Positions 10,682-36,970 of a stretch of 64,000 bases of DNA are shown piece by piece. Source of the stretch: Arthrobacter sp. B3I9 (GTDB lineage Bacteria; Actinomycetota; Actinomycetes; Actinomycetales; Micrococcaceae); the NCBI RefSeq assembly GCF_030816935.1, contig NZ_JAUSYO010000001.1, positions 3,968,001 through 4,032,000 of the forward strand, in the 5' to 3' direction. Numbering within the stretch: the first letter of the stretch is position 1; the number at the start of each line of letters is the position of its first letter. The notes under the pieces are model-generated. The model ran no database searches and was not told where the DNA came from. It saw nothing but the letters and a program-made list of their open reading frames with translations. The position numbers and the translations under genes were made by a program.

Positions 10682-11455
10682 ATGACTGAACTCCCCCTGA
10701 TCGGCGAGGCCATCGCTGTGGCCGCGGAGCCCAGCCTCGCGGGCGCCCGGATCGGCGTCGTCACCTTCCCCGGAACCCTTGATGACCGGGACGCCGCGCG
10801 TGCCGTCCGCCTTGCCGGCGGCACCCCGGTTTCCCTCTGGCATGCCGACACGACGCTGGGCGACGTCGACGCCGTCGTCATCCCCGGAGGCTTTTCCTAC
10901 GGCGACTATCTCCGTGCCGGCGCGATCGCACGGTTCGCGCCCCTGATGTCCAAGGTCATCGACGCCGCCAATTCGGACGCCAAACTGCCCGTACTCGGTA
11001 TCTGCAACGGCTTCCAGATCCTCACGGAATCGCACCTGCTGCCCGGCTCCATGATCAAGAACGACCACCTGAAGTTCATGTGCCGCGACCAGACCCTCCG
11101 GGTGGAGAACAACACCACGGACTGGACCGGCGATTATGCCGCCGGCCAGGAAATTGTCGTGCCGCTGAAGAACCAGGACGGCCAGTACCTCGCGGACGAG
11201 AAAACCCTCGATGCCCTGGAGGCTGAAGGCCGCGTCGTGTTCCGCTACGTCGGCTTCAACCCGAACGGCTCCCGCCGCGACATCGCCGGCATCTCCAACG
11301 CCGCCGGCAACGTGGTGGGCCTCATGCCGCACCCGGAACACGCGGTCGAGGTAGGCTTCGGACCCGAATCGCTCGACGGCATCGGCGGCTCCGACACCCA
11401 CGGCCTCGGTTTCTTCACCTCCGTCCTGAACAAGATTGTGGGAGGCGCCAAATGA
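10682..11455 (+). CDS. purQ: Phosphoribosylformylglycinamidine synthase subunit PurQ
   Basis: A 257-residue class I glutamine amidotransferase that supplies ammonia to PurL. The nucleophile elbow GICNGFQ carries the catalytic cysteine, and the PHPEHA segment near the end supplies the catalytic His/Glu. The N-terminus [19 protein letters not shown] is typical; the first 20 residues are a short extension. ATG 10682 comes one base after the purS stop. The stop overlaps the purL start by four bases. The reading frame is also open upstream inside purS but that part has no homology. Confidence 0.96.
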
Positions 11456-13761
11456 GCATCGACACCACCAAGAAATTCAACATCGACACCGTTGAAAACG
11501 CCGCCAAAACCCCGGACACCGAGCTTCCTTGGGCAGAACTGGGCCTGAAGCAGAACGAGTTCGAGGAGGTCGTGAAGGTCCTGGGCCGCCGTCCGACCGG
11601 CGCCGAGCTCGCCATGTACTCCGTGATGTGGAGCGAGCACTGCTCCTACAAGTCCTCCAAGAACCACCTGCGCCAGTTCGGCGAGAAGGTGACCGAGGAG
11701 ATGAAGAAGGACATGCTGGTCGGGATCGGCGAAAACGCCGGTGTCACCAACCTCGGTGACGGCTGGGCCGTGACGTTCAAGATCGAGTCCCACAACTCGC
11801 CGTCGTTCGTGGAGCCCTACCAGGGTGCCGCAACCGGCATCGGCGGCATTGTCCGCGACATTATCTCCATGGGTGCCCGCCCGGTGGCCGTGATGGATCC
11901 GCTGCGCTTCGGCGCCATCGACCATCCGGACACGGCCCGCGTCATGCACGGCGCCGTGGCCGGTATCGGCGGCTACGGGAACTCCCTGGGGTTGCCGAAC
12001 ATCGGCGGCGAGATGGTCTTCGACTCCGTGTACCAGGGGAACCCGCTGGTCAACGCCCTGGCAGTCGGCGTGATGCGCCACGAGGACATCCGCCTCGCCA
12101 ACGCCTCCGGCAAGGGCAACAAGGTGGTGCTGTTCGGCGCCCGCACCGGCGGTGACGGCATCGGCGGCGCCTCCGTGCTGGCCTCGGAGTCCTTCGACGA
12201 CACCAAGCCCTCCAAGCGTCCCGCGGTGCAGGTGGGTGACCCCTTCGCCGAGAAGGTCCTGATCGAGTGCTGCCTTGAGCTGTTCAAGGGTTCGCTGGTT
12301 GAAGGTATCCAGGACCTCGGCGCCGCGGGCATTTCCTGCGCCACGTCCGAGCTCGCCTCCAACGGCGACGGCGGCATGGAAGTCGAGCTGACTTCCGTGC
12401 TGCTGCGCGACCCGACGCTGACCCCGGGCGAAATCCTGATGTCTGAGTCGCAGGAACGCATGATGGCCGTGGTCACCCCCGAGAACGTCGCCGCCTTCGA
12501 GGCGGTCATGGACAAGTGGGCCGTCGAGTACTCCTGGCTGGGCCACGTCACCGACACGGGCCGCCTCATCATCACCTGGGACGGCGAGGTCATCGTCGAC
12601 GTCGACCCGCGGACCGTGGCGCATGACGGACCGGTCTACGACCGCCCGTACGCCCGCCCCAAGTGGCAGGACTCCGTGCAGTCCGACGTCTTCACCGGAT
12701 CCGTGCAGGACGCCGGCCGGCCTTCCACCGCGGAGGAGCTGGCCGCAGCCGTCACCGAGCTCATTGCCTCGCCGAACATGTGCGACAAGTCCTGGATCAC
12801 CAACCAGTACGACCGGTACGTCGGCGGCAACACCTCGATGGCCATGCCGGACGACGCCGGCGTGGTCCGGGTGGACGAGGAAACCGGCCTGGGCGTGGCC
12901 CTGGCCACCGACGCCAACGGCCGCTACACCTTCCTCGACCCGTACCACGGTGCGCAGCTGGCCTTGGCCGAGGCGTACCGCAACGTTGCCACCGCCGGCG
13001 CCGTGCCGATGGCCGTCAGCGACTGCCTGAACTTCGGCTCCCCCGAGGACCCCGACGTGATGTGGCAGCTGGCGGAGGCCATCCGCGGCCTCTCCGACGC
13101 CTGCATGGAGCTGGGCATCCCGGTCACGGGCGGCAACGTCTCGCTGTACAACCAGACCGGAACTGTCCCGATCCACCCCTCCCCGGTGGTCGCGGTGCTC
13201 GGCAAGCTCGACGACGTCGCCCGGCGCACGCCGTCGGGCTGGCGCGAGGACGGCCAGGCCATATACCTGCTCGGCACGACGGCGGCAGAGCTGGACGGTT
13301 CGGAGTGGTCGAACCTCCGGGGCCACCTGGGCGGGCTGCCGCCGAAGGTTGATCTCGGCGCTGAACGGGCGCTGGGCGAAATCCTGATCAACGCCTCGCG
13401 CGACGGCATGATCGATTCCGCCCACGACCTCTCCGAAGGCGGCCTCGCGGCAGCCCTCGTGGAGTCCTCGCTGCGCTACGGCGTGGGAGCGCGGATCGCC
13501 CTCCAGGATGTCCTGGACCGCGACGGCGTGGACCTGTTCACGGCGCTGTTCTCCGAGACCCAGGGCCGCGCCGTCGTGGCCGTGCCCCGCTCAGAGGAGA
13601 TCCGGTTCACGGACATGTGCACCGCCCGCGGCTTCGCCCACGTCCGGATCGGTGTTGTGGACGCCGAGAGCGGCAAGCTGGAGATCAACGGCGTCGAGAG
13701 CCTGTCGCTCGAGTCGCTCCGCGAAGCCCACGAGGCGACCCTGCCGAAGTACTTCGACTGA
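11452..13761 (+). CDS. purL: Phosphoribosylformylglycinamidine synthase subunit PurL
   Basis: A 769-residue large subunit, the ATP-dependent catalytic part of FGAM synthase. Landmarks are [11 protein letters not shown] near residue 61, [21 protein letters not shown] (residues about 108-128), the [14 protein letters not shown] segment, and the second-half [11 protein letters not shown] and [11 protein letters not shown] motifs of the PurM-like repeats. The length matches small-type PurL, which needs PurS and PurQ, both just upstream. ATG 11452 overlaps purQ (ATGA). A family-A palindrome begins five bases after its stop and may act as the operon end. Confidence 0.97.
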
Positions 13762-13765
13762 GTTT

Positions 13766-13827
13766 CATCGATTGCTCCGTAACCGCCGTTTTGAACCCTC
13801 AAAATGGCAGTTGCGGAGCAATCGTTG
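13766..13827. repeat. Palindromic repeat family A, copy 1
   Basis: Arms 13769-13794 and 13799-13824 (26 bases each) pair with three mismatches around a 4-base loop. The arm begins CGATTGCTCCG and ends TTTTGA. It lies between the purL stop and the stop codon of the DUF559 gene, which is read from 13831 towards higher positions on the opposite strand. Copies 2 and 3 are at 14824 and 15213. Confidence 0.9.
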
Positions 13828-13828
13828 G

Positions 13829-14770
13829 TTAACGGCCGGGCCGCCAGCCGGCCTGAAGGAGTGCGGCGCGCACCTTGGCCACCGCGGCTTTGGCGTCATT
13901 GAGCATGTGCTGCTTGGAAATACGGACCTCGGTCCAGCCCAGGGCCGCGTACCGCTCGGACCGGGCAATGTCCCGGACGATCTGCTCGTTGTCACCGTGG
14001 TGTTCGCCCTCGTACTCGATGCCGATCCTGTACCGGCGGTACGCGAGGTCGGGCTCGTGGTGGCGGACGCCGTCGTCCGTAATGATGGGCTTGTTCAGCT
14101 CCGGCTCGGGCAGGCCTGCCCGCACAATCGCCAGCCGGAGCATCGTCTCCTGCGGAGAATCAGACCCCACCCGGATGAGCTCGATCGCTTCCTTGGCCTT
14201 GCGGATGCCTGGCTTCCCCTTGTGCCTGTAGATCATCCGCTGCAGGTCAGAAACGTCGCAGTGCGGGCTGTCCCGGCCCTCAAGGTCGGCCCGCGGCACG
14301 CGAACACAGCTATCCCCCAGAGCCACAACCTCATCCACGGACAGCGTTTCCGCCATGTCCAGCCAGGTGCGCTCAGGAGTGGTTACAGAAATGCCTCGCA
14401 CCGTGGTGATTTCGTCGTCGTACAGTTTCATCCGGTGCACGACGACGTATGGCCGGTTGAGATGGGCCGCGCCCTCCGGCCTGATGATGTGAAAGGTCTC
14501 GGGAGTTTCTTTCCGCCGTCGTCGCGGCAGCAACAGGAGCTCCGCCGCGGTGACGTGCGACGCGGCGCACCGCTCGTTGACTTCAATAAAGGGGCGCACT
14601 CTGATGCCCAGGGGGAGCTCGGCCGTCGTCGCGGGACCCCTGATTCCCTTACCGAGGGCGTGCAGCGAACCATGCCGCAGCCGCTTCGGCGACACTCCGG
14701 CGTGTGCAGCCTCAGCAACGGTGAAAGGGCGGTCCTGGAGCTCCCCCGGCAATTGCCTTGCGGTCTTCAT
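13829..14770 (-). CDS. AbiEi-type winged-helix plus DUF559 (Vsr-like nuclease) protein
   Basis: A 313-residue protein. Residues about 10-35 (FTVAEAAHAGVSPKRLRHG) resemble the winged helix of AbiEi-type antitoxin proteins; residues about 235-305 resemble DUF559, a Vsr/restriction-endonuclease-like domain, with EPDLAYRRYRIGIEYEGEHH giving candidate catalytic Asp241 and Glu252/Glu254. The start ATG 14770 gives the usual N-terminus; its ribosome-binding site is weak. The stop codon lies four bases beyond palindrome A1, and palindrome A2 lies 54 bases before the start, with TTATCCACA between. A truncated relative at 36062 has the same arrangement. Function is unknown; DNA cleavage is a family-based inference. 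Confidence 0.8.
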   Translation of the reverse strand: MKTARQLPGELQDRPFTVAEAAHAGVSPKRLRHGSLHALGKGIRGPATTAELPLGIRVRPFIEVNERCAASHVTAAELLLLPRRRRKETPETFHIIRPEGAAHLNRPYVVVHRMKLYDDEITTVRGISVTTPERTWLDMAETLSVDEVVALGDSCVRVPRADLEGRDSPHCDVSDLQRMIYRHKGKPGIRKAKEAIELIRVGSDSPQETMLRLAIVRAGLPEPELNKPIITDDGVRHHEPDLAYRRYRIGIEYEGEHHGDNEQIVRDIARSERYAALGWTEVRISKQHMLNDAKAAVAKVRAALLQAGWRPGR

Positions 14771-14808
14771 CGACCCATCGGACCAGAATCCGGCCGGCCG
14801 TGCAGAAG

Positions 14809-14817
14809 TTATCCACA
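14809..14817. other. TTATCCACA motif between the DUF559 start and palindrome A2
   Basis: The 9-mer lies 6 bases inside palindrome A2. A near-identical ATATCCACA is found at 36891-36899, 8 bases inside palindrome B2 beside the second DUF559 gene. The 9-mer also equals the consensus DnaA box, but a single site here gives no reason to think of an origin. Confidence 0.4.
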
Positions 14818-14823
14818 CGGCCC

Positions 14824-14884
14824 ATCGATTGCTCCGCAACGGCCCTTTTGAGCCTTCAAAACGGCCGTTGCGGAGCAATCGTTG
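14824..14884. repeat. Palindromic repeat family A, copy 2
   Basis: Arms 14826-14851 and 14856-14881 match at 25 of 26 positions with loop GCCT. The outer edges read ATCGATTG on the left and CAATCGTTGGGG on the right. It stands upstream of the DUF559 gene and downstream of the DUF503 gene. Confidence 0.92.
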
Positions 14885-14905
14885 GGGGTTAGCAGTCGAT
14901 GGGTG

Positions 14906-15199
14906 TTAGTCGTCGCTGCGGAGTTCGCGCTGGCGGGCGCTGAGCAGCTCGAGTTCCGGGCGTGCTGCCATGAAGCGTTCGACGGCGGTCAGCACCTCCA
15001 CGAGGTGCGCCCGGTCCGCAGCCACCAGTCCGACGCCGATCACGGTGCGCCGGTACTGGTCCTGCAGCCCCGCTTCGGTGACGGAAACGTCGAACCGGCG
15101 CTTGAGCTCGGCGAGCACGGGACGCACCACCGAGCGCTTCTCCTTGAGACTGTGGACGTCGCCAAGCAGCAGGTCGAATTCAATCCAGCCAATCCACAT
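14906..15199 (-). CDS. DUF503 family protein
   Basis: A 97-residue protein starting MWIGWIEFDLLLGDVHSLKE, the standard N-terminus of DUF503 (YlxP-like), a small family often encoded near translation factors; its role is not settled. The family pattern KEKRSVVRPVLAELKRRFDVSV is intact. ATG 15199 has AGGA only one base upstream, so initiation may rely on a near-leaderless message. It is placed between palindromes A2 and A3, away from its usual infB/rbfA/truB neighbours. Confidence 0.88.
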   Translation of the reverse strand: MWIGWIEFDLLLGDVHSLKEKRSVVRPVLAELKRRFDVSVTEAGLQDQYRRTVIGVGLVAADRAHLVEVLTAVERFMAARPELELLSARQRELRSDD

Positions 15200-15210
15200 G
15201 TCCTAAGCCT

Positions 15211-15273
15211 ATCCATTGCTCCGTAACCGCCCTTCTGAGGCTTCAAAACGGCGGTTACGGAGCAATCGATGGG
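15211..15273. repeat. Palindromic repeat family A, copy 3
   Basis: Arms 15213-15238 and 15243-15268 pair around loop GGCT; the right arm matches the family consensus exactly (TCAAAACGGC through CGGAGCAATCG), the left has two changes. The right edge reads CAATCGATGGGG. It lies between the DUF503 gene and the ABM gene, both on the minus strand. Confidence 0.9.
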
Positions 15274-15274
15274 G

Positions 15275-15592
15275 TTAGATGGTGAGTTCGCCCATCTGGT
15301 CCCAGCCCTCGCCGTCGAGCTGGCGGCTGATGATCCGGGGTGTCTCCGCGAGGGCCTGTGGCATGTCCGCCATGGCCTTCTGGAAGTGGGCACTGTTAAC
15401 GTGGTCCCCGGCGGCGTCGTCCTTGAAGGCCTCGACCAGGACGAACTCGTTAGGGTCCTCGATGCTCCGGGACCAGTCGAACCACAGGTTCCCCGGCTCC
15501 CGGCGGGTTGCCTGCGTGAAGTCCTCCACAAGGCCGAGCCAACGCTCGGACCATTCGGGCTTGACCTTGAACTTGACGACAATGAAAATCAC
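15275..15592 (-). CDS. Antibiotic-biosynthesis-monooxygenase (ABM) domain protein
   Basis: A 105-residue dimeric ferredoxin-like barrel protein of the ABM/YgiN type. The beta strand IFIVVKFKVKPEW, the segment EPGNLWFDWSRS and the FVLVEAFKDDAA-H motif are characteristic. Such proteins act as cofactor-free quinol oxygenases or remain unassigned. GTG 15592 has AAAGGGA seven bases upstream. The stop lies seven bases from palindrome A3. It heads a run of small minus-strand genes; no substrate can be inferred. Confidence 0.85.
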   Translation of the reverse strand: MIFIVVKFKVKPEWSERWLGLVEDFTQATRREPGNLWFDWSRSIEDPNEFVLVEAFKDDAAGDHVNSAHFQKAMADMPQALAETPRIISRQLDGEGWDQMGELTI

Positions 15593-36012: not shown

Positions 36013-36069
36013 CGAGTTGGCACTTCGCAGCAGTGCCGGCGCGAAACACTGCGGCGAACTGTCAACTCG
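36013..36069. repeat. Palindromic repeat family B, copy 1
   Basis: Arms 36013-36035 and 36047-36069 (23 bases, three mismatches) with an 11-base loop; the arm begins CGAGTTGGCAC and ends GCAGTG. The stop codon of the second DUF559 gene (36062-36064) lies inside the right arm. Confidence 0.85.
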
Positions 36070-36850
36070 TGCTCCAGCCACGGGCCGCCAAGGCATTGCA
36101 GACCTTCGGGACGGCGGCAGGACGCTCACCCAAGAGGTCGAGCCGGGAGATACGTACCTCATGCCAGCCGGACCGCGCCGTCGTATCTGCCCTGCGGATG
36201 TCGCGCAAGTACTGGTCCTCACCGTTGTGGTGGGCCCCTTCGTACTGCAGCGAAACCCGCCATGGTGGGAACGCAGCGTCGGGCCACAGGACAGGCCAGC
36301 CCCTGCCGCCCCAGGGATCCTCGCTCCAAACAACGTGGTTGAGTACCGGTTCCGGCAGGCCGCCCCGGATAAGGACCAGGCGCAGGCGCGTTTCCGGCGG
36401 CGAGTCGGCGCCCACCCTGATGAGCTCGACGGCGGCCCGGGCTTTGCGTATCCCGCGGCTGCCGGGGTGCCGCTCCAGCACGGACCGCAACTCCTCGATG
36501 CTGCACAGGGCCTCGCGAGGGCGCGGGAATTCCGGTCCGTGCTCGTACACCATGGAATCACCAACGATGACAAGCTCATCAGCGCTGAGGACCGAGGCGA
36601 GGTCCAGCCAGGTCCGGGCAGGCGAGGTGAGCCGGACGCCGTCGAGCTCCACCACCTCATGCGGGAGCAATGCGAGCTGGTGTCCTACAACGTTGACCCG
36701 TCGTGGAGTGCTTTGTCCCCGCCGCCGGGCGAGGTGGATGCGCCAGTCGTCCTCGAGCCGGCCGGGCAGCGGAGCGTTCCAGAGCCGCGCGGCCGAGCCG
36801 AGGCTAAGGTGGTCAGGTGAGGCGGAAGCGGTGCCCTGCGCATGGCCCAT
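36062..36850 (-). CDS. DUF559-domain protein, N-terminally truncated
   Basis: About 262 residues, related to the gene at 13829 in order of blocks: TSPARTWLDLASVLSADELV, IRKARAAVELIRVGADSPPETRLRL and a DUF559 end (WPDAAFPPWRVSLQYEGAHH...WHEVRISR). About 65 residues, including the winged helix, are missing; the sequence before the start runs directly into palindrome B2. The first Glu of the relative's IEYEG is Gln here (LQYEG), which may abolish cleavage. The start is uncertain (36850 or 36862). It is probably a decaying copy, though the frame is open throughout. Confidence 0.7.
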   Translation of the reverse strand: MGHAQGTASASPDHLSLGSAARLWNAPLPGRLEDDWRIHLARRRGQSTPRRVNVVGHQLALLPHEVVELDGVRLTSPARTWLDLASVLSADELVIVGDSMVYEHGPEFPRPREALCSIEELRSVLERHPGSRGIRKARAAVELIRVGADSPPETRLRLVLIRGGLPEPVLNHVVWSEDPWGGRGWPVLWPDAAFPPWRVSLQYEGAHHNGEDQYLRDIRRADTTARSGWHEVRISRLDLLGERPAAVPKVCNALAARGWSTS

Positions 36851-36890
36851 TGTGGCCCGCATTTCCAAGGCGCACCGGCGATATCCACAG

Positions 36891-36899
36891 GCCCGGCCC
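36891..36899. other. ATATCCACA motif just inside palindrome B2
   Basis: Shares TATCCACA with 14810-14817, at nearly the same distance from the flanking palindrome and on the same side of the DUF559 gene. Shared placement is the evidence; function unknown. Confidence 0.4.
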
Positions 36900-36907
36900 G
36901 CCCGGCA

Positions 36908-36970
36908 CATCGAGTGGGCACTTCGCGGGGGTGTTTGCGCAAAACACTGCCGTGAAGTGCCAACTCGATG
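36908..36970. repeat. Palindromic repeat family B, copy 2
   Basis: Arms 36908-36936 and 36942-36970 (29 bases, about three mismatches) with a 5-base loop. Left edge CATCGAGT, right edge AACTCGATGGGGG. It lies between the truncated DUF559 gene and the end of the TrmH gene. Confidence 0.9.

Follow-up and report, generated by a model that had tools for sequence, protein, structure and literature searches.

Between two copies of one imperfect palindrome in Arthrobacter sp. B3I9 lies a gene for a nuclease-like protein (gene A), and the locus raises the question of whether protein and palindromes belong together, and as what kind of system. The window analysed is a stretch of 64,000 nucleotides (nt), positions 3968001-4032000 of the single-contig 4.12-Mb genome (G000; G numbers denote genomes and L numbers homologue loci), for which the nearest named relatives in the homologue search were Arthrobacter and Pseudarthrobacter. 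An earlier sequence-only reading had proposed a DUF559/Vsr-like nuclease with its own palindromes, related to them as in repetitive extragenic palindromic (REP) systems; this relation holds up, while recognition and mobilisation of the palindromes are still what we infer. Bracketing by palindromes is a very strongly supported rule in this family of AbiEi-nuclease proteins, solo copies of the palindromes track the resident gene, and our best reading, at a probability of roughly 0.6, is a REP-like repeat system served by an enzyme of the homing-endonuclease type.

Palindromes bracket the nuclease genes

Gene A, at the coordinates first proposed, is bracketed by palindromes A1 and A2 (Table 1), with the arms of A1 stopping at 13824, four bases off the 3' end of the gene (13829). 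The 63-nt copies at 13766-13828 and 14823-14885 are 89% identical, with arms of 29 nt (86% complementary) in A1 and 31 nt (94%) in A2 and loops of 4 nt; the 54 bases between A2 and the start codon and the 26-base arms given by the sequence-only reading were right to within a few bases, the distance to the ATG being about 50 bases when counted with the longer arms. For each homologue a flank score was obtained by local alignment of the 300 nt upstream with the 300 nt downstream, and flanks were called matched at a score of at least 36; gene A scores 91. The same-family set consisted of the best 80 of 532 relatives, of which 79 were counted, with L072 left out (contig end; it scores 38 elsewhere) and the broken L082, L110 and L121 kept as misses. 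Matched flanks were present in 68/79 loci (median score 68), vs 2/389 arbitrary 935-nt spans from the same loci. The flanking repeats are imperfect palindromes of about 60 nt, the downstream one usually beginning no more than a few bases from the stop codon and often overlapping it, and the upstream one mostly stopping 47-72 bases ahead of the match start. Among open reading frames (ORFs), which here and below were called roughly, scores of at least 36 were reached by 4/217 in 300 kb of G000 and 4/291 in 400 kb of the relative G010. These eight comprise gene A in each genome, a FAD-oxidase-like gene, an IS30-like transposase gene and four non-palindromic matches (in G000: gene A, the FAD-oxidase-like gene and two non-palindromic matches); gene B, the second bracketed gene of the window, lay outside the top ORFs of the G000 calling.

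The search was expanded to the Actinomycetes, where a homologue (E<=1e-15) was found in 240/393 genomes and 93/122 genera. A class-wide sample of 88 loci from 14 families (28 new loci and 60 from high in the match list with some skipped, at most five matches being scored per genome, and two loci from the own genus) had matched flanks in 68/88 loci, vs 21/2160 mismatched flank pairs. Outside the genus 66/86 loci were matched; 12 of the 13 other families had at least one matched locus (f39: 0/2), and the single own-family locus outside the genus scored 33; a loose hairpin test was passed by 65 of the 68 matched loci. For a coincidental link the sequence-only reading had expected most homologues to lack flanking palindromes, or palindromes to occur equally at random gene ends; instead, most homologues were matched in both sets above and in the 26/40 described below, and matches were rare at the control spans and ORFs, even with gene A included among the latter.

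Solo palindromes follow the resident gene

The palindromes are largely gene-specific: in nine named two-locus genomes the own pairs score 39-115, vs 17-46 for upstream-downstream pairs crossed between loci. A search of the own genome with both palindromes of the window, as had been suggested, placed palindrome A at 25 and palindrome B at 8 places (E<=0.01). By the rough ORF calls, 24 of the 25 A palindromes adjoin the 3' end of a gene, 14 lying between convergent, 10 between tandem and one between divergent genes.

From a comparison across genomes, it is clear that solo palindromes track the resident nuclease gene. A gene A orthologue (at least 71% identity; the copy in G011 is truncated and that in G036 frameshifted) is present in 22 of 37 genus genomes, each with 13-32 palindrome A matches among the matches listed, counted in both orientations. 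The 15 genus genomes without the orthologue (A-less genomes) have 0 (five genomes), 2 (four genomes), 4, 5, 8, 9, 16 and 29 listed matches, i.e. 0-9 in 13 of the 15, and 22 genomes outside the genus have none. At the purL site, where gene A resides, eight A-less genomes (G004, G005, G008, G014, G023, G030, G033 and G034) carry one clear palindrome of another family, AACGCGGGGTCACTT..., and G001, G018 and G024 one of yet another (GCGCGAACGGACACTTG or similar); of the remainder, the site holds a degenerate form in G031, a short hairpin resembling palindrome A in G022 and a longer stretch with another kind of hairpin in G016, and in G019 the contig ends there. If solo palindromes are a property of the resident nuclease, these genomes should have a homologue with that same palindrome on both sides. 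The AACGCGGGGTCACTT-type palindrome indeed flanks a resident homologue in seven of the eight genomes, on both sides in G004, G008, G014, G023, G030 and G033 and on the one available side in G005, and in G034 was at neither of two homologues examined. For the GCGCGAACGGACACTTG-type family there was a one-flank match to a resident homologue in G024 (43) and G018 (45), and in G001 none at either of two homologues examined. Over a subset of the homologues of A-less genomes (40, from 12 of the 15), 26/40 had matched flanks.

The position of the A palindromes at gene ends would fit a system without mobility, in which the palindromes act as operators, terminators or insulators for a gene that regulates itself and similar hairpins serve other genes. 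For AbiEi antitoxins, binding to inverted repeats in the own promoter is known, and some solo copies hold their place between species and remain palindromic, which also suits this explanation. Terminators, however, need neither a common sequence genome-wide nor tracking of one gene, and the conserved nuclease active site and the concerted change of both palindrome copies (see below) would be left unexplained, so that we regard an immobile regulatory role as improbable. Ordinary terminators as a full explanation were rejected, since control spans and ORFs seldom have shared sequence on their two sides and the palindrome families track gene presence.

Features of the window and other homologues in the genome

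Table 1. Gene A, gene B and associated features (window coordinates)
Feature	Position	Strand	Remark
Gene A, 313 aa	13829-14770	minus	between palindromes A1 and A2
AbiEi-like part, gene A residues 3-200	14171-14764	minus	predicted
Vsr/I-Bth0305I-like nuclease part, gene A residues 205-309	13844-14158	minus	predicted
Palindrome A1	13766-13828	.	3' side of gene A
Palindrome A2	14821-14886	.	upstream of gene A
DnaA-box-like TTATCCACA	14809-14817	plus	between A2 and gene A start codon at 14770
Third A palindrome, solo	15203-15278	.	none at matching place in relative G010
purL	11452-13761	plus	gene A neighbour, named by eye
DUF503-like gene	14906-15199	minus	gene A neighbour, named by eye
Gene B open frame, broken	36062-36910	minus	
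Palindrome B1	36013-36069	.	overlaps gene B stop codon
Palindrome B2	36908-36970	.	upstream of gene B
ATATCCACA	36881-36889	plus	between B2 and gene B; one mismatch from TTATCCACA

Gene B had been noted as a second DUF559 gene with the same layout and a different palindrome. The layout is as described, and its palindromes belong to another family than palindrome A, but the gene is broken, because residues 13-67, which are most of the helix-turn-helix region, are missing relative to G010 and the first 12 codons are out of frame with the G010 counterpart. With scores of 91, 54 and 46, homologues A, B and C of the own genome all have matched pairs. A Vsr-like gene (L288, G000 near 3654042) and an AbiEi-like gene of 204 aa (L284, G000 near 2151400) have no matched flank pair (scores 22 and 18); both were named by eye, and TTATCCACA was found upstream of each.

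Two other genes in the ORF control, also named by eye, lie between palindromes of these families. The FAD-oxidase-like gene (G000:C1:3831071-3832801, outside the window) is located between two A palindromes, and the flanks of its stretch are unmatched in the G010 piece compared. The IS30-like transposase gene (G010:C1:322883-324086) has C-type palindromes on both sides, as though these had served the element as a target.

The predicted protein

The gene A product is predicted to join an AbiEi-like half to a Vsr/I-Bth0305I-type nuclease, based on VIA-align, profile matches and weak sequence similarity to 3hrl (E 0.0019); a Foldseek search against the PDB gave no match at E<=0.001. Residues D241, H258 and D267 are invariant among 60 members and E208 is present in at least 90%, and we take these four to correspond to the EDxHD active-site pattern; both the predicted nuclease fold and these residues fit an EDxHD/Vsr-type homing endonuclease. 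The Pfam model MTES_1575 REase matches 56/60 members (E<=0.01), gene A itself scoring 31.5, under the curated cut-off of 38.2.

The PADLOC AbiEi models match 51/60 members, which would fit a defence or toxin-antitoxin role in which the fusion attacks foreign DNA and the palindromes are regulatory or self-marking sites. Against this, the neighbours of gene A, judged by eye only, included no recognisable toxin partner, the sites flank the gene itself, and most genus genomes contain several diverged homologues (2-10 each), and we consider such a role very unlikely. Plasmids or phages as the main vehicle were rejected, since among 72,556 plasmid records a tblastn search with gene A gave three matches, each to an Arthrobacter replicon of 0.75-1.35 Mb, and among 50,697 phage records it gave two. 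A homologue of 35% identity lies in MT837503.1:4953-5957, a faecal 'Bacteriophage sp.' record of 6.7 kb that carries no annotation.

A DnaA-box-like element upstream

The sequence element which the sequence-only reading had placed between A2 and the start of gene A is there, as TTATCCACA. Either TTATCCAC or TATCCACA, on either strand, occurs at most 90 bases upstream in 76/80 named loci, nearly always 44-50 bases ahead of the match start, and in 6/4314 background stretches. The own genome has only 20 TTATCCACA sites and three of the reversed pattern; among the 20 are one upstream of each of genes A and D, six within 670 bp (295321-295990, outside the window) and one in the presumed dnaA-dnaN gap about 16 kb from this cluster. 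Because of this low number, the cluster and the site in the gap, TTATCCACA is probably the DnaA box of the organism itself. Outside the genus TTNTCCACA lies at most 160 nt upstream in 29/86 loci, vs 0/952 background stretches. A role of DnaA at the upstream element may be suspected from this pattern.

Movement, loss and concerted change

The purL side is common to 42/79 named loci. Homologues at the purL site of A. koreensis (L101), A. citreus (L099) and A. gandavensis (L111) have 44-46% identity and other palindromes, and in all three both palindrome copies have changed together. An A-type gene with A-type palindromes is found at another locus in L058 and as a second copy in G012 (L418); since in the tree the G012 copy joins L081 from the purL site (100/82), with L058 next to both (97/91), an A-type unit has changed its place at least once. 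At the fba-trmH site, 23 genus genomes showed seven units, two solo B-type palindromes, 13 sites without and one with another gene; G020, counted as without a unit, retains half a palindrome. These states, labelled by hand, are scattered over the trmH tree, for which repeated loss is the simplest reading and repeated gain the alternative. The alignment of empty sites, also suggested earlier, gave a present/absent pair for a solo palindrome: in place of the A palindrome at 15203-15278, G010 has 22 bp, and other solo copies are common to both genomes.

These data also bear on a close rival to the REP-like reading, in which entire units home into solo palindromes: the nuclease would cut a solo palindrome, repair from a palindrome-gene-palindrome donor via the palindrome halves would make a unit, and recombination between both palindromes would restore the solo state. 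Nearly all units of one type are at one place, however, which fits vertical descent with loss, and no solo site was seen turning into a unit; we consider whole-unit homing unlikely, although less so than an immobile regulatory role.

For palindrome A, likeness was compared over 31 of 35 loci (L058, L072 and L082 left out). Copies from the same locus are more alike than pairs from different loci (0.795 vs 0.741; reached by 0/5000 permutations), and orthologous downstream copies are 0.811 alike, vs the 0.795 within loci. In an alignment of 20 of the 25 own-genome copies, with five partial copies left out, 88.5% of stem cells are paired (86.6 in shuffles) and 23 cells are doubly changed (13.9 +/- 2.9 in shuffles); pairs changed on both sides (7 vs 6.1) and further pair types (19 vs 16.1), two of the five measures used, are not clearly above shuffling, and one stem position is unpaired in 12/20 copies. 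Separately, a dispersed repeat (TGGGCCCACGCCGGCGAGGG...GGTGGGG and variants) was seen within or next to some of the palindromes and as tandem copies at some of the empty sites (L418, L058, L185 and L197; also L212 and L218).

Relation to known systems

As in REP/RAYT systems (REPtrons, REPINs), the gene lies between its own palindromes, copies are dispersed at gene 3' ends and the repeats are imperfect hairpins. The differences lie in the enzyme and the repeats: RAYTs are Y1 (HUH) transposases, vs the AbiEi-like and Vsr-type product of gene A, and the palindromes here are about 60 nt long. REPs usually have more than 100 copies (PMC2817692), vs 25 places for palindrome A and 8 for B, and the GTAG/CGTC end tag of REPs is absent from the A family, of which 20 copies judged by eye end in CATCGATTG/CAATCGATG. 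A PF01797 search of the own genome found no Y1 transposase; the AbiEi-nuclease system is therefore not a REPtron by definition, but may work like one, and a RAYT acting in trans from the own genome was likewise rejected.

TIRtrons (TIRYT; PMC3733652) share gene-specific inverted repeats flanking the gene, some in dispersed families, but their enzyme is a tyrosine transposase. I-Bth0305I, Vsr nucleases and DUF559 (3hrl) differ in lacking the fusion to an AbiEi-like half and the palindromes on both sides. With the AbiE type IV systems the predicted AbiEi-like domain is shared, whereas the nuclease fusion, and a partner toxin not recognised by eye, set gene A apart from their AbiEi antitoxins. 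MTES_1575 REase, the Pfam model of which matches most members, is a large multi-domain fusion (PMC3710099). We found no description of palindromes around DUF559 or AbiEi-nuclease genes in the literature searched, which consisted mostly of partial texts outside subscription papers, and absence from print is not claimed.

Interpretation

The unit consists of a palindrome, the DnaA-box-like element with the promoter, the nuclease gene and a second palindrome, with solo copies at other gene ends. In the REP-like reading, the AbiEi-like half would recognise the palindrome, possibly in the form of a cruciform or of a single-stranded hairpin at the replication fork, the Vsr-type domain would nick or cut it, and repair or replication would place copies of the palindrome, and in rare cases of the entire unit, at new sites, with expression possibly tied to replication via the DnaA-box-like element. 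This mechanism is suggested by the dispersal, the cognate distribution, the concerted change and the presence/absence of the palindromes.

Several observations weigh against this reading. Matched flank pairs are missing from 11/79 same-family and 20/88 class-wide homologues, and homologues D (31) and E (19) of the own genome are below 36, though inspection by eye showed palindromes flanking D at either end and E at its 3' end. A cross pair of L074 and L091, both in one genome, outscores an own pair (46 vs 39). The 25 copies of palindrome A are few for REP-type repeats; the presence counts ignore kinship, being without correction for phylogeny; G004 has 16 palindrome A matches without gene A, an unexplained exception, and for G019, with 29, the contig ends at the gene A site. 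Most A-type units keep one chromosomal site, and the filled/empty solo comparison is a single pair with ends too diffuse for any target-site duplication to be read off. Plain regulation would also be consistent with a conserved DnaA site in the promoter, and recognition, cutting and mobilisation of the palindromes by the protein are what we infer from sequence comparisons.

We give about even odds to the fuller proposal that the AbiEi-nuclease fusions of Actinomycetes constitute an undescribed class of selfish repeats, homing-type enzymes acting on their own palindromes of about 60 nt, timed by DnaA, and spreading solo palindromes and occasionally entire units. If true, a selfish-repeat class arose independently of the Y1/RAYT systems, and much of the palindromic intergenic DNA of Actinomycetes would be the product of such fusions. 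To our knowledge, REP-type palindromes have been paired with only one known type of enzyme, the Y1 transposase. The CGTC REPs are an example of palindromic repeats without a known enzyme (PMC3733652). A second nuclease family, unrelated to the first and flanked in most of the homologues examined by palindromes of its own, would offer such orphan palindromes a candidate enzyme. The link between enzyme and repeat could be tested directly, with several orthogonal pairs available in a single genome, and many genes at present annotated as DUF559 or AbiEi-like would gain a function.
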